DNA of 64,000 nucleotides from the IMG/VR virus record IMGVR_UViG_3300036835_000374, positions 1-64,000 of that record; one strand, given 5' to 3'. A model generated the notes under the pieces. It saw nothing but the letters and a program-made list of their open reading frames with translations. It was not told the origin of the DNA and did no database searches. The stretch comes from a virus. The position numbers and the translations under genes were made by a program. Positions 3,593 to 31,562 of the stretch are shown in pieces (the stretch's first letter is position 1; each line of letters begins with the position of its first letter).

Positions 3593-4342
3593 TCACTGCG
3601 GAGGGGCAGCCTCCACCGTGTACTCGTACCCGATCGTCAACCGCATCGGCAGGCACCACTCGCCGTACTCGATGACACCCTGGTCGTCCCACAGCCGGTG
3701 CGCGCCGGCGAGGATCGGTGAACCGGTTCGCAGGCCGAGGTAGTTGGCCTCGCGTGCGTCTGCGTCACGGCCGTGGATGTCGTCACGGCCGTCCGTGACC
3801 GTGCGCCCTGTCGTCTGCTGGATTTTCAGCAGCAGGCCGGGTGCTGACGAGCGCGCGGTGGACAGCAGTTCGGGGACGGCTGCCGCGAAGTGCGCCGGAT
3901 ACCAGGTGACGTGCAGGCCGGTGCGCTGCTGGCCCTTGCCGGTGTGCCACTCGCGTCGTACCACTTGGTGGCCGTCTTCGAGGTCGAAGAGTTCAGCAAC
4001 GTACTGCGGGGGCTTGATGAGTTCGGCGCGGGTCACAATCATCGTCTCGCCCTCGGCGAGGACGCTGCCCGTGCGCAGGACGCGGGTGATCCGGTCGTAC
4101 CCGGACGGGGCGATCTCGGGGGCGTTCGCAACGAACGTGCCGCGGCGTGAGGTGGTGATGTAGCCCTCGACCTGGAGGTGGTCCAGGGCGCGGCCGAGGG
4201 TGGCGACGGCGACGCCTTCCTGCTGGGCCAACTCGCGCTGGTTGGGGAGTTTGGCGCCTTCTTCGAGTCGGCCATCGAGGATGCGGCGGCGGATGCGTTC
4301 GGCGACCTGCATGTACGGCGGCTGCGGCTGGGTGTCGGGCAT
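3593..4342 (-). CDS. GntR/HutC-family transcriptional regulator
   Basis: Protein of 249 aa from ATG 4342, chosen for the GAGGAG just upstream. The N-terminal winged helix (about residues 8-75) has the GntR signature YMQVAERIRRRILDG, GAKLPNQRELAQQ and GRALDHLQVEGYI. The C-terminal ~160 residues form a UTRA-type effector domain (EWHTGKGQQRTG, WDDQGVIEYGEWCLP). Regulators of this family control transfer genes in Streptomyces integrative elements (KorSA of pSAM2). The divergent intergenic region holds repeated CCTAG/CTAGG-core sites, consistent with autoregulation. What it controls in this phage is unknown. Confidence 0.9.
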   Translation of the reverse strand: MPDTQPQPPYMQVAERIRRRILDGRLEEGAKLPNQRELAQQEGVAVATLGRALDHLQVEGYITTSRRGTFVANAPEIAPSGYDRITRVLRTGSVLAEGETMIVTRAELIKPPQYVAELFDLEDGHQVVRREWHTGKGQQRTGLHVTWYPAHFAAAVPELLSTARSSAPGLLLKIQQTTGRTVTDGRDDIHGRDADAREANYLGLRTGSPILAGAHRLWDDQGVIEYGEWCLPMRLTIGYEYTVEAAPPQ

Positions 4343-4358
4343 CGTCGTCTCCTCGTGT

Positions 4359-4465
4359 CCTAGTTCACTGGCGACTGTACTAGGCCACGCGTCATCCGGA
4401 AGAGGGGAGTATCCGCGAGTCACTAGCCGAGTGCCCTAGGTCAGCGTATGTTGTGCCCTAGGTCA
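4359..4465. promoter_or_regulatory. Operator cluster for the GntR regulator (CCTAGG-core repeats)
   Basis: The divergent region contains the direct repeat GTGCCCTAGGTCA at 4431-4443 and 4453-4465, spaced by exactly 22 bp (two helical turns). It also has an imperfect inverted pair, CCTAGTTC at 4359-4366 and GTACTAGG at 4377-4384. All share a CTAG core. The position between the divergent GntR gene and the gene at 4505 makes this its likely binding region; that is inference. Confidence 0.6.
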
Positions 4466-18441: not shown

Positions 18442-19518
18442 ATGGCCCGCGGACACGGACGCGTCCTCACCAGCATCTGGGACGACGCCGACTTCCTCGC
18501 CCTCACCGAGCGCGAGCAACGCCTCTATCTGTTCCTCATTTCCCAGCCGAACCTCAACCACGCCGGCCTGCTCGACCTCACCCTGCGCCGCTGGTCCCGC
18601 AAGGCCCACGGCCTCACCTCCGACGGGCTGGAGGAACTCCTTCAGTCCCTGGAGAAGGCCCGGTTCATCGTCATGGACGACGACACCGAGGAACTCCTCA
18701 TCCGCTCCTTTGTCCGTAACGACGGTGTGTGGAAGCAGCCCAAGGTGATGGGCGCCATGGTGTCCGGCGCGATGGAGATCTCTTCCTGGAAGCTGCGGCA
18801 CGCGCTCCTCGCCGAGGTCGACCGGATCCCGCTGCACGAACTCAGCGACGAGCCCGGCGCCCGCGGAGTGTCGATCCGCGCTCAGGTCGCCGAGCACATC
18901 GAGAGCCTACGGAACGCCTTCGGTACCCCGCCCCCCAACCCGTCCGGAACGGGTACAGCAACCCCCTCCGGAACCCCTTCGGGAACCCCCTCCGATACCC
19001 CTGCCGAAGGGGGTCGGAAAGCCTCTACGCGCGCGCACGCGCCCGCGTCACGCGCGCATTCCCCTGCCCCTGCCCCTGCCCCTGCCCCTATCCCCAGCCC
19101 CGTAGAAGAGGGGGCTGCTGAGACCGGTGGGCAAGTCGAGCTTGTCGTCGTCGAGGACTCCGACTTCGTCGGCGCGACAGAAGCCGCGACCGTGTCTGCT
19201 CAGACGATCGTCGGCGAGTGGATCGACCGCTGCGCCAAGCGGCCCCCGTCCCAGACCATCGGCCAGACCTCGAAGCAGATCAAAAAGCTCCTCGATGACG
19301 GCATCGACCCCGATGACATCCGCCGAGGGCTCGCCAAGTGGATGGCCAAGGGCTCCGCCCCGTCCGCCATCCCGAGCTTCGTGAACGAGGCGATGAACGC
19401 GGCCTCGTCCTGGACGCCCTCGAACGTCATCGCCCTCCCCGGCCAGCAGCCACTCACTGGCACAGACGCCCGTGTAGCCGGCTGGCTCGCCCTCGCATCA
19501 GGAGACGACACCCAATGA
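18442..19518 (+). CDS. Phage replication initiator (winged-helix, DnaD/O-like)
   Basis: Protein of 358 aa from ATG 18442. The N-terminal ~110 residues form a winged helix (SIWDDADFLALTEREQRLY, GLLDLTLRRWSRKAHGLTSD, RSFVRNDGVWKQPKV). A low-complexity linker (about residues 160-225, SGT/PAPA repeats) separates this from a C-terminal helical domain (SAQTIVGEWIDRCAKRP, RRGLAKWMAKGSAPSAIPSF). The architecture is that of phage replication initiators that bind origin repeats within their own gene. The helicase-loader-like gene follows with an ATGA overlap. Confidence 0.75.
   Translation: MARGHGRVLTSIWDDADFLALTEREQRLYLFLISQPNLNHAGLLDLTLRRWSRKAHGLTSDGLEELLQSLEKARFIVMDDDTEELLIRSFVRNDGVWKQPKVMGAMVSGAMEISSWKLRHALLAEVDRIPLHELSDEPGARGVSIRAQVAEHIESLRNAFGTPPPNPSGTGTATPSGTPSGTPSDTPAEGGRKASTRAHAPASRAHSPAPAPAPAPIPSPVEEGAAETGGQVELVVVEDSDFVGATEAATVSAQTIVGEWIDRCAKRPPSQTIGQTSKQIKKLLDDGIDPDDIRRGLAKWMAKGSAPSAIPSFVNEAMNAASSWTPSNVIALPGQQPLTGTDARVAGWLALASGDDTQ
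18948..19092 (+). repeat. Tandem repeats inside the initiator gene, candidate origin
   Basis: Near-repeats of CCCCTCCGGAAC at 18963-18998, an inverted pair ACCCCTTCGG / CCGAAGGGGGT (18974-18983, 19004-19014), and tandem CCCCTG hexamers near 19060-19092 encode the SGTPSGT and PAPAPA linker. Lambda-like phages hold ori iterons in the same place of gene O. The repeats are seen; the origin role is inference. Low-complexity protein alone could also explain them. Confidence 0.35.
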
Positions 19519-28704: not shown

Positions 28705-29640
28705 GTGAACCGCCCAACCCGCACCCAGCGCATCCGCGACGCCGCCCTCTGGTGCCGCGACAGCGCCCTCGGCGGACTCGGCTACACCCTCGTCCTCACC
28801 GTCGCCGCCGCCGGATGGGCCGCCAGCTTCATCGGCCTCCACGACTTCGGCATGCACCACATGGGCCTCAGCCAAAACGCCGCCTGGCTCGTCCCCATCA
28901 CCTTCGACGGCGCCCCCGCCGGCCTGTCCATCGTCGTCGCCCGCGCCTCCACCCACGGACGGCCCGCCCTCGTCTGGCGGCTCCTGATCGTCGGCTTCAC
29001 CGGCCTGTCGTCGTGGATCAACTACCAGCACATCGACGATCCGCTCGGTCGCGGCGTCGCCGCGTTCATGCCGCCGTCCGCGGTGATCCTCTTCGAGGGC
29101 CTCATGTCCGAAGCACGGGCCGCAGCACAGCGCCGCCTCGGCCGCGCGATCCCGCGGATGCACCCGCTGCGGTGGGTGTTCGACCGGTCCGGGACCCTCG
29201 ACCTGTACCGCCGGTACATCCTCGGCCTGCCACTGCCAACGGCTCTCGATGCCACCCCTGCCAGGCCGCCAGCGCCTGCCACGAACCCTGCCAGCGCCCT
29301 GCCAGCCGAGGGTGCCAGCCGGGTGCCAGCCCCTGCCAGCCAGCCCCGCCAGCAGCCTGCCAGCCCCACCCTGCCAGCACAGGCGCCAGTGGCAGCGCCC
29401 GCGCCGGAGCAGCCCGCCACGCCTGCCAGTGCCAGCGACGCCAGCCAGGGCCGCGACCTCGACGAGGTGGCAGCCGCCTACCGCTCCCTCCGCGCCAGCC
29501 TCGGCGTGCGCCGGCCATCATCCGCGAAGCTCGGCGAAGCCCTCGGCGTGTCCCGGTCCCGCGGCCAGCAGCTCCGCGAGCAGATCGAGACCCACCCCGA
29601 CTACGCGGCGGAGTTCGCTCCGGCCCTGAAAAGCGCGTGA
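28705..29640 (+). CDS. DUF2637 membrane protein (plasmid Spd-type) with C-terminal HTH
   Basis: Protein of 311 aa from GTG 28705. Four transmembrane segments occupy about residues 22-135 with the DUF2637 pattern (LGGLGYTLVLTVAAAGWAAS, WLVPITFDGAPAGLSIVVAR, LLIVGFTGLSSWINYQH). A long Pro/Ala/Ser linker (about 175-250) and a C-terminal helix-turn-helix (RRPSSAKLGEALGVSRSRG) follow. DUF2637 proteins accompany Tra/FtsK translocases on Streptomyces plasmids and integrative elements. The linker DNA holds a cluster of TGCCA motifs. Confidence 0.82.
   Translation: MNRPTRTQRIRDAALWCRDSALGGLGYTLVLTVAAAGWAASFIGLHDFGMHHMGLSQNAAWLVPITFDGAPAGLSIVVARASTHGRPALVWRLLIVGFTGLSSWINYQHIDDPLGRGVAAFMPPSAVILFEGLMSEARAAAQRRLGRAIPRMHPLRWVFDRSGTLDLYRRYILGLPLPTALDATPARPPAPATNPASALPAEGASRVPAPASQPRQQPASPTLPAQAPVAAPAPEQPATPASASDASQGRDLDEVAAAYRSLRASLGVRRPSSAKLGEALGVSRSRGQQLREQIETHPDYAAEFAPALKSA
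29228..29473 (+). repeat. Motif cluster A: 14 TGCCA (10 as TGCCAG), 2 TGGCA
   Basis: TGCCA starts at 29228, 29234, 29250, 29259, 29277, 29289, 29300, 29313, 29324, 29334, 29358, 29372, 29424 and 29430; TGGCA at 29390 and 29468. The motif falls in two reading frames of the DUF2637 gene (CTG-CCA and CCT-GCC-A), so amino-acid repetition is not the only cause. It may be a protein-binding array. Confidence 0.6.
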
Positions 29641-29651
29641 GGTGACGTGCC

Positions 29652-31562
29652 GTGACTGACGCACCGAACGTCTGGAAGACCGCATACGGGCCCCTCCCGC
29701 GCCGCGACACGTCACGTCACCTCAAGCGGCTGCGGGGCGTTCTCGCAGGTCGCTGGCGGTACCTACTCCCGATCGGAGCAGCCCCCGCCTGGGGTGCGTG
29801 GATCTACACCGAACACTGGCTCACCGACGTGACATGGCGTGAACCCCTCGCCTACGGCGGCACCGGCGTTCTCGCCCTCAGCGGCACCGTGTGCGCAGCC
29901 GTCCTCGGCGTCCGCAACCCCGCCGCCCTCTACGCCGGCACCTTCACCAGCGGCATCCTCACCTGGTCCGCGTGGCAGGTGACAGACCCGTCCCTGCCAG
30001 GCCTGGCAATCGGCGCCGTTGGCAGCCTGGGTGCCAGCGTCCCCTACTGGGCGTGGCTGGCACGCCACCTCCTCGACCGCGACAAGCTGGCAGCCAAGAC
30101 TGGCAAGCTGGCACCCCCGGACTCTGGCAGCGTGCTGGCACCCGACGACGTGGCAGGCGCCCTCGCTGCCACTGGCACCCCGGGCGCCAGCCTCGACCAG
30201 ATGCACCGCCACCCCGACGGCGCCTGGACCGCCATCGTCAGCCTGCCCGTTGGCAGCAGCCCGCACGACATCGTCGGCAACGCCGGCCGCATGGCGCGCC
30301 TGCAAGCCGCGCTCCGGCTGCCCCCGGGCTGGACCCTGGAAGCCGAAGACGGGGGAGCGTCGCACCACCTGATCGTCACCGCCCGCCCGCCAGCCCCGCC
30401 ACGCGCCGAGGTCGTCATCCCCGACGTGCATCCGATCGTCGACCACCTCGGCGAGTGGGACCCGTGGCAGCCGCTCCTCGCCGCCCTGGACGTCGAGACC
30501 GGCGAGTCCGTGTTCCTGCACCTTCTCGGCCGGGCCGGGATCCTCATCGCGGGCCTGCAGCGCATGGGCAAGAGCGTGCTGCTGTCGGTGATCGTCGCGC
30601 ATCTGGCACTGTCGAAGGCGCGGTTGATCCTCGCTGACGCCAAGCTCGTCGAACTCTCTTTGTGGGCGCCGCTGTGCCAGCGCCCGGACGACTTCGTAGG
30701 CCGGGACCCGGAGGCGTTCCTCGCGAAGCTGCTGGAACTGCAGACCGAGATCGACCAGCGGTACGCGCGGCTCGTTGAGGAAGGCCGCACCAAGGCCGCA
30801 CCGGGCGACAACTGGGAGCCCATCGCTCTCATCGTCGACGAGCTCGCCGCGTTCATCGACATCCCAGACCGAAAACTCCGCGGGAAGATCGTGTCCGTTC
30901 TCCGCGACATCGTCTCCCGCGGTCCCGCATGTCTGGTGCCCGTGATCCTGGCGACACAGAAGCCTGAAGACAAGGTGGTCCCGTCGCAGATCCGCGACGT
31001 GTGCGGGCAGAAGGTCGCACTCGCCACGACCACACCGCAGATGACCGACACGATCCTTGGCCAAGGGTGGGCGTCCCGCGGCGCAACGCCGCACCTGTTC
31101 GGCGAGACCGACAAGGGCTCCGCCTGGATGCTCGAAGACGGCAGCCGGCCGCGGCAGGTGCAGACGTTCCCGTTCGAGCCGCCTGCCCGCCGCGAAGTCA
31201 TCGACTACGCGCACAAGCTGTGGCCCGACCGTCCCGGGGCGCGGGTCCCGCTGCCCGGCGCCGACGAGCCCGATCCGGACCCGGACGGTGGCGGCAGGCC
31301 GCGGCTGCGGTCGGTGCCGTGCTTCCCGGACGGGACACGGATCCCGGACAACCGGGTCGGGTTGTGGCAGGCGATGGACCGTGCCGGTGGTGGCGGGTTC
31401 ACGATCAACGACCTGGTGGCGTTGGGCTTGCCCGGCTACAGCGCCCGCACTTCGGTGGATGGTCCGCTGCAGCAGTGGCGGCGGTCCGGCTGGGTGGTGG
31501 AGATCGGCAAGCACGGTCGGGCGCAGTTGTTCGCTCTGGCCCGGCACGCGAAGGCGGCATGA
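29652..31562 (+). CDS. FtsK/SpoIIIE-type DNA translocase (Tra/TraB-like)
   Basis: Protein of 636 aa from GTG 29652. N-terminal membrane helices lie at about residues 37-53 and 66-135. The motor domain has Walker A GLQRMGKS (301-308) and Walker B IALIVDELAAF (Asp396, Glu397), with the FtsK-type ILATQKPEDKVVPSQIRD (432-449). A C-terminal winged helix (about 565-636: RVGLWQAMDRAGGGGFTIND, LQQWRRSGWVVEIGKHGR) fits DNA-sequence recognition. Tra proteins of this kind move double-stranded plasmid DNA between Streptomyces hyphae. It is about 200 residues shorter than chromosomal FtsK. The 5' part of its gene holds the TGGCA cluster. Confidence 0.9.
   Translation: MTDAPNVWKTAYGPLPRRDTSRHLKRLRGVLAGRWRYLLPIGAAPAWGAWIYTEHWLTDVTWREPLAYGGTGVLALSGTVCAAVLGVRNPAALYAGTFTSGILTWSAWQVTDPSLPGLAIGAVGSLGASVPYWAWLARHLLDRDKLAAKTGKLAPPDSGSVLAPDDVAGALAATGTPGASLDQMHRHPDGAWTAIVSLPVGSSPHDIVGNAGRMARLQAALRLPPGWTLEAEDGGASHHLIVTARPPAPPRAEVVIPDVHPIVDHLGEWDPWQPLLAALDVETGESVFLHLLGRAGILIAGLQRMGKSVLLSVIVAHLALSKARLILADAKLVELSLWAPLCQRPDDFVGRDPEAFLAKLLELQTEIDQRYARLVEEGRTKAAPGDNWEPIALIVDELAAFIDIPDRKLRGKIVSVLRDIVSRGPACLVPVILATQKPEDKVVPSQIRDVCGQKVALATTTPQMTDTILGQGWASRGATPHLFGETDKGSAWMLEDGSRPRQVQTFPFEPPARREVIDYAHKLWPDRPGARVPLPGADEPDPDPDGGGRPRLRSVPCFPDGTRIPDNRVGLWQAMDRAGGGGFTINDLVALGLPGYSARTSVDGPLQQWRRSGWVVEIGKHGRAQLFALARHAKAA
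29973..30255 (-). repeat. Motif cluster B: 12 TGGCA and 3 TGCCA, mainly inverted relative to cluster A
   Basis: TGGCA starts at 29973, 30004, 30020, 30058, 30088, 30101, 30109, 30125, 30136, 30151, 30173 and 30251; TGCCA at 29995, 30032 and 30167. The motif appears in all three frames (TGG-CAG, CTG-GCA, GTT-GGC-A), which points to selection on DNA. The remaining 1.3 kb of the gene has only about three copies. Confidence 0.65.

Follow-up and report, generated by a model that had tools for sequence, protein, structure and literature searches.

TGCCA/TGGCA arrays in the coding sequence of a viral transfer-type locus and their association with the helix-turn-helix of a DUF2637-type membrane protein

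Introduction

Two adjoining genes of a virus, one for a DUF2637-type membrane protein and the other for an FtsK/TraB-type translocase (ftsK), carry within their coding sequences two dense arrays of the pentanucleotide TGCCA and its complement TGGCA. Their presence raises the question of why so many copies of one short word are kept in protein-coding DNA, and of which protein would read them. The stretch analysed here, referred to as the window, comprises positions 1–64,000 of IMGVR_UViG_3300036835_000374, the complete record of which is 67,330 bases. The gene content of this record includes a tyrosine integrase, portal, capsid, terminase, and amidase, and the host group of the virus is the actinobacteria of high guanine-plus-cytosine content. 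A first-pass annotation had described both arrays, attributed them to selection on DNA, and suggested that they were read by the winged helix of the translocase.

Selection on the array DNA

Arrays A and B, located in the DUF2637 gene and in ftsK, respectively (Table 1), together hold exactly 31 TGCCA/TGGCA sites, and the counts and coordinates reported previously for each array proved to be exact. The entire 64 kb contains just 55 TGCCA and 60 TGGCA. A pattern search of the full 67,330-base record detected no second TGCCA cluster. Synonymous codons were shuffled with both proteins and their codon usage kept. The expected number of TGCCA copies in the DUF2637 gene was 1.7, as compared to 14 observed (z 10.4), while that of TGGCA in ftsK was 6.1, as compared to 15 observed (z 5.6), and in neither gene did any of 2000 shuffles reach the observed count. 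The original observation is correct, and stronger than had been stated. The sites fall in two reading frames of the DUF2637 gene and in all three of ftsK, in agreement with the earlier description. Although the low-complexity linker had been put forward as a partial confounder for array A, the enrichment of this array persists after repeats that share the dominant frame and orientation are dropped, and thus the linker is not its cause. Selection on DNA shapes both arrays, as had been claimed, and the earlier description of orientation-biased arrays embedded in the coding sequence of a transfer-type locus was likewise right. RNA structure was also considered for array A and rejected, since the predicted folding was no stronger than that of shuffled sequences (z +2.2).

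Both arrays are also present in four further, diverged elements, all of them viral and retrieved by protein searches (L010, L014, L253, and L263). Over the five elements, the number of sites is nearly constant (31, 27, 29–30, 28, and 29, with the window first), and their density is 48 per kb within the arrays versus 1.5 outside. Enrichment over synonymous shuffles was seen in both genes of the window, L010, L014, and L253. TGCCA is enriched 18-fold and none of its one-mismatch variants is clearly enriched, as would be expected for a strict 5-base-pair (bp) recognition site; the flanks of the sites contribute little information. The polarity attributed to the arrays holds as an orientation bias, with TGCCA:TGGCA ratios of 61:21 in array A and 15:47 in array B (Fisher p 2e-9, with sites that are not independent), but not as a strict rule. 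Array DNA is alignable at 84–86% between the window and L010, and, for array B, at 89% between L014 and L253. In contrast, the B arrays of the window, L014, and L263 sit in different sequence, which indicates at least three independent settings for array B. The arrays are thus conserved, with turnover, among the elements. When viral contigs were scanned for exact matches to a pattern of three TGCCAG copies, the matches listed were unrelated tandem repeats. Applied to 101 Streptomyces genomes, this pattern returned mostly tandem repeats, and a reversed control matched at least as often.

Association of the arrays with the C-terminal helix-turn-helix

The DUF2637-type protein of the window ends in a helix-turn-helix (HTH) that is kept in L010, L014, L253, and L263. 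Arrays were present in five of five elements with this HTH, and in none of 14 related ftsK loci, from phages and phage-plasmids, that lack the HTH gene (L011, L012, L172–L174, L243, L244, L246–L251, and L254). The translocase of one of the latter (L011, from S. zaomyceticus) is 65% identical to that of the window, and that of another (L012, NBC_00536) has a closely similar winged helix; neither locus carries an array. Conversely, array B overlies two FtsK lineages which are only 27% identical, and in L263 no ftsK adjoins the arrays, array B being placed over an unrelated small gene. The sole FtsK-like match in the 91-kb record of L263 is weak and lies about 5 kb downstream of the array. The winged helix of the translocase, proposed as the reader in the first-pass annotation, was thus probably the wrong candidate, since the sites are absent from loci with similar FtsK proteins and present over an unrelated gene.

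The membrane domain ahead of the HTH is of one type in the window and L014 and of different types in L010, L253, and L263, whereas HTH and array remain constant. In L136, by contrast, a membrane domain with 66% identity is followed by another C-terminal domain, and there is no TGCCA array. Judged from these comparisons, array presence tracks the HTH of the DUF2637 protein and not the winged helix of FtsK. A recombination boundary can be placed at about 4500–4600 of L010 and about 29230 of the window, where unrelated membrane domains precede a linker, HTH, and ftsK that the two have in common; the C-terminal part thus behaves as an exchangeable module.

AlphaFold2 models the HTH, at fair confidence, as a tri-helical DNA-binding fold (mean predicted local distance difference test score, pLDDT, 83). 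A fold search with this model gave no close solved relative, the best match being to sigma factors (E value 0.095), followed by LexA and MntR.

Arrays of other motifs in other DUF2637 genes

DUF2637 genes were found in 31 of 31 Streptomyces genomes scanned, mostly several per genome. A general test was applied to all 6-mers, using synonymous shuffles and counting only copies outside the dominant combination of frame and orientation (p <= 0.015). Significant arrays, located in the linker DNA, were found in 17 of 67 accessory DUF2637 genes and in none of 28 core chromosomal ones (Fisher p 0.002), where accessory refers to all sampled genes outside the core group and takes in some array-less chromosomal classes. 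The core chromosomal Streptomyces genes (L213–L241) encode a long linker but differ at the C-terminal end and carry no array. The motifs include TGACCG (26 copies in L294), GGACCG (35 in L295 and 30 in L298), GGACCA (21 in L301), TGAGCC (16 in L266), and TGAAGC (14 in L280), as well as GGGACA in plasmids L256 and L257, CGGAAC in the Saccharopolyspora plasmid L176, and CCGAAA/CGAAAC in L276, L318, L319, and L320. The linker of L276 is a coiled coil, so that the motif in that gene is weaker evidence. In L294, L295, and L298, which are the strongest cases, copies occupy three frames and both orientations, are irregularly spaced, and are rare in flanking DNA. Three candidates were excluded as coding repeats, namely L268 (Ala-Pro tandem), L299 (Gly-Thr tandem), and L275 (21-bp coiled-coil period). 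These results suggest that the proposed design, an array within the gene of its reader, is repeated with different words in further mobile elements of Streptomyces.

Among 20 genes with arrays, the similarity of the last 70 residues was compared with that of the 6-mers over-represented in the linker, after removal of the HTH-coding DNA. HTH similarity and motif similarity were strongly correlated (Mantel r 0.87, p 0.0002). The correlation of membrane-domain similarity with motif similarity was 0.24, and the partial correlation for the HTH remained 0.87; when the comparison was restricted to the 176 pairs whose membrane domains were unlike, r was 0.89.

The genes which neighbour the arrays are transfer genes, with FtsK/TraB in phages and small plasmids, and relaxase and NikA/MobC in integrative elements, where related arrays adjoin the relaxases. 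In L294, L295, L298, and L301 the recurring neighbours are WhiB, DUF2637-HTH, NikA/MobC, relaxase, and IstB, not all of them at each locus. These four are likely to be integrative mobilizable elements.

Proposed role of the arrays and alternative explanations

The tri-helical model of the HTH, together with the transfer-gene neighbours, led us to propose a membrane-anchored protein that gathers DNA by way of numerous weak sites. Arrays A and B are probably one docking array of about 30 sites for the HTH of the DUF2637-type protein, which would hold the DNA of the element at the membrane. In this scheme, the C-terminal HTH would bind exact TGCCA sites in double-stranded DNA, and many HTHs on the flexible linkers of a membrane-bound oligomer would bind many sites simultaneously. 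Since each site is short, specificity should arise from this multiplicity. The protein would thereby collect the DNA of its own element beside the transfer motor, i.e., FtsK/TraB in the window and relaxase modules elsewhere, and so serve transfer, spread from one hyphal compartment to another, or segregation. HTH binding, membrane tethering, and a role in transfer or segregation are what we infer. Other accessory DUF2637 proteins would follow the same plan, each with its own HTH and its own motif. Whether the accessory DUF2637 proteins of Streptomyces mobile elements are, as a group, diversifying membrane-anchored DNA binders, in which linker DNA doubles as the array for the protein's own HTH and in which anchor, reader, and address evolve as one gene to give each element a private tag, is a question on which we consider the balance to be even. 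If so, a large family without known function, named in one paper of the literature searched, would gain a role, and many HTH-motif pairs would be readable from sequence and open to parallel testing. It would also provide an example of strong DNA-level selection on the part of a gene that encodes a disordered linker, and show how elements whose transfer motors are alike distinguish their own DNA from the DNA of competitors.

The closest precedent is SpdA2/sps of the Streptomyces plasmid pIJ101, a plasmid spread and stability gene that itself contains the sites bound by its protein product (PMC4170104). Synonymous removal of the sps sites led to segregational loss of the plasmid and left transfer unaffected (PMC4170104). 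In the window, the sites of array A likewise lie within the gene, whose product may bind them, as the association described above suggests. However, sps is a 12-bp palindrome (CGTCACGTGACG) which occurs in 1–3 copies and is common to many plasmids, whereas the window has some 30 copies of a 5-mer that is not palindromic, part of them in the next gene, with a membrane protein as putative reader and motifs that differ by element. Only a separate dyad, GTGACGTG..CACGTCAC, resembles sps half-sites, in spread-out form.

Several points weigh against the docking array. When array A is taken by itself, L263 does not pass the strict frame-dominance test, and 50 of the 67 accessory DUF2637 genes have no significant array. 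Linker and HTH may have been inherited as one module, and shared ancestry could yield part of the co-variation. The docking array does not account for the polarity by which A and B face each other. Moreover, in SpdA2/sps, the nearest tested case, stability alone suffered when the sites were lost, and transfer did not (PMC4170104).

An unlikely alternative, and one compatible with a docking array, is that the array is an operator, at which the membrane-bound HTH would bridge sites on both sides of the ftsK start and so repress or silence the operon that encodes it. The arrays flank this start and the dyad near-symmetrically in the window, L010, L014, and L253. However, the sites are in protein-coding DNA and several hundred bases distant from the start region, and the symmetry is absent from L263 and from the elements with relaxases.

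We likewise regard as rather improbable that TGCCA is a polar recognition sequence of the translocase, read by its winged helix in the manner of FtsK-orienting polar sequences (KOPS), SpoIIIE recognition sequences (SRS), or clt. Four of the five elements have array B within ftsK, the sites face each other across the dyad, and TraB has been reported to recognise 8-bp repeats, the TraB recognition sequences (TRS), at clt (PMC4170104). Against this stand the FtsKs of L011, L012, and L172–L174, with similar winged helices and no array, the arrays of L263, and the adjacency of related arrays to relaxases. The likeness to TraB/clt thus consists of an FtsK-type motor at a transfer locus and short repeated sites; the difference is that TRS is read by the motor, whereas among the relatives of the window the motor does not predict the sites. 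The KOPS of E. coli FtsK and the SRS of SpoIIIE are short, non-palindromic, and orientation-biased, as are the sites of the window. They are dispersed over the chromosome, however, whereas sites of the window type form one compact array per genome.

It is very improbable that the arrays are origin iterons bound by a replication initiator. Compact groups of short repeated sites are typical of iteron origins, but more than 10 kb separates the arrays from the replication-initiation gene found in the window (18442–19518, PHROG 8064), their presence goes with the DUF2637 HTH, and related arrays occur in chromosomally integrated elements. An artefact of coding or RNA, i.e., Pro/Ala codon bias, RNA structure, or an RNA-binding site, would suit the low-complexity linker under array A but is hardly credible in view of the synonymous shuffles, the several frames, the two orientations, and the non-repetitive region beneath array B.

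Returning to the docking array, plasmid centromeres (ParB-parS and ParR-parC) likewise comprise short sites in arrays, close to the gene that encodes their binding protein, the difference being that the binder proposed here is itself a membrane protein. No partner nucleoside triphosphatase (ParA/ParM) turned up beside the arrays in general gene scans, which were not aimed at ParA/ParM. SpdB2 of pSVH1 is an integral membrane spread protein that binds DNA, oligomerises, and interacts with TraB (PMC4170104). By description it resembles the proposed reader as a membrane protein with DNA binding; it differs in that its binding is reported to be non-specific and no site array has been described.

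Other features of the locus

Table 1. Positions of the arrays and associated features in the window
Feature	Position	Strand	Description
DUF2637 membrane protein gene (311 amino acids)	28705..29640	+	Membrane domain, Pro/Ala-rich linker, C-terminal HTH
Array A	29228-29473	+	14 TGCCA and 2 TGGCA, in linker-coding part of DUF2637 gene
C-terminal HTH, proposed array reader	29458..29592	+	About residues 252-296 of DUF2637 protein
Inner dyad GAGGTGACGTG ... CACGTCACCTC	29639..29723	.	Spans ftsK start, between arrays A and B
FtsK/TraB-type translocase gene (636 amino acids)	29652..31562	+	C-terminal winged helix, about residues 565-636
Array B	29973-30255	-	12 TGGCA and 3 TGCCA, in N-terminal part of ftsK

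The assignment of the first gene rests on a Pfam match to PF10935 (DUF2637) over residues 28–175 (E value 5.4e-33; 114.6 bits versus a cut-off of 22.8). In PHROGs, DUF2637 proteins are labelled excisionase (phrog_733), a name that nothing in this analysis supports. The product of ftsK matches PF01580 (FtsK/SpoIIIE; E value 5e-7; 29.8 bits versus a cut-off of 24) and also PHROG 1358. Seven of the array-less ftsK loci (L011, L012, L172–L174, L243, and L244) belong to Streptomyces plasmids of 125–132 kb which are Gilgamesh-related at the ftsK locus; they are recorded as plasmids and are possibly phage-plasmids.

The dyad GTGACGTG..CACGTCAC is located at the ftsK start of almost every related locus, in phages and phage-plasmids alike (L010, L011, L012, L014, L172–L174, and others). 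It is found at ftsK loci both with and without arrays, and is a separate element. A search of 199 genomes with the dyad pattern gave few real loci. The product of window positions 3593–4423 (minus strand), a GntR/UTRA-type regulator, is a possible reader of the dyad.
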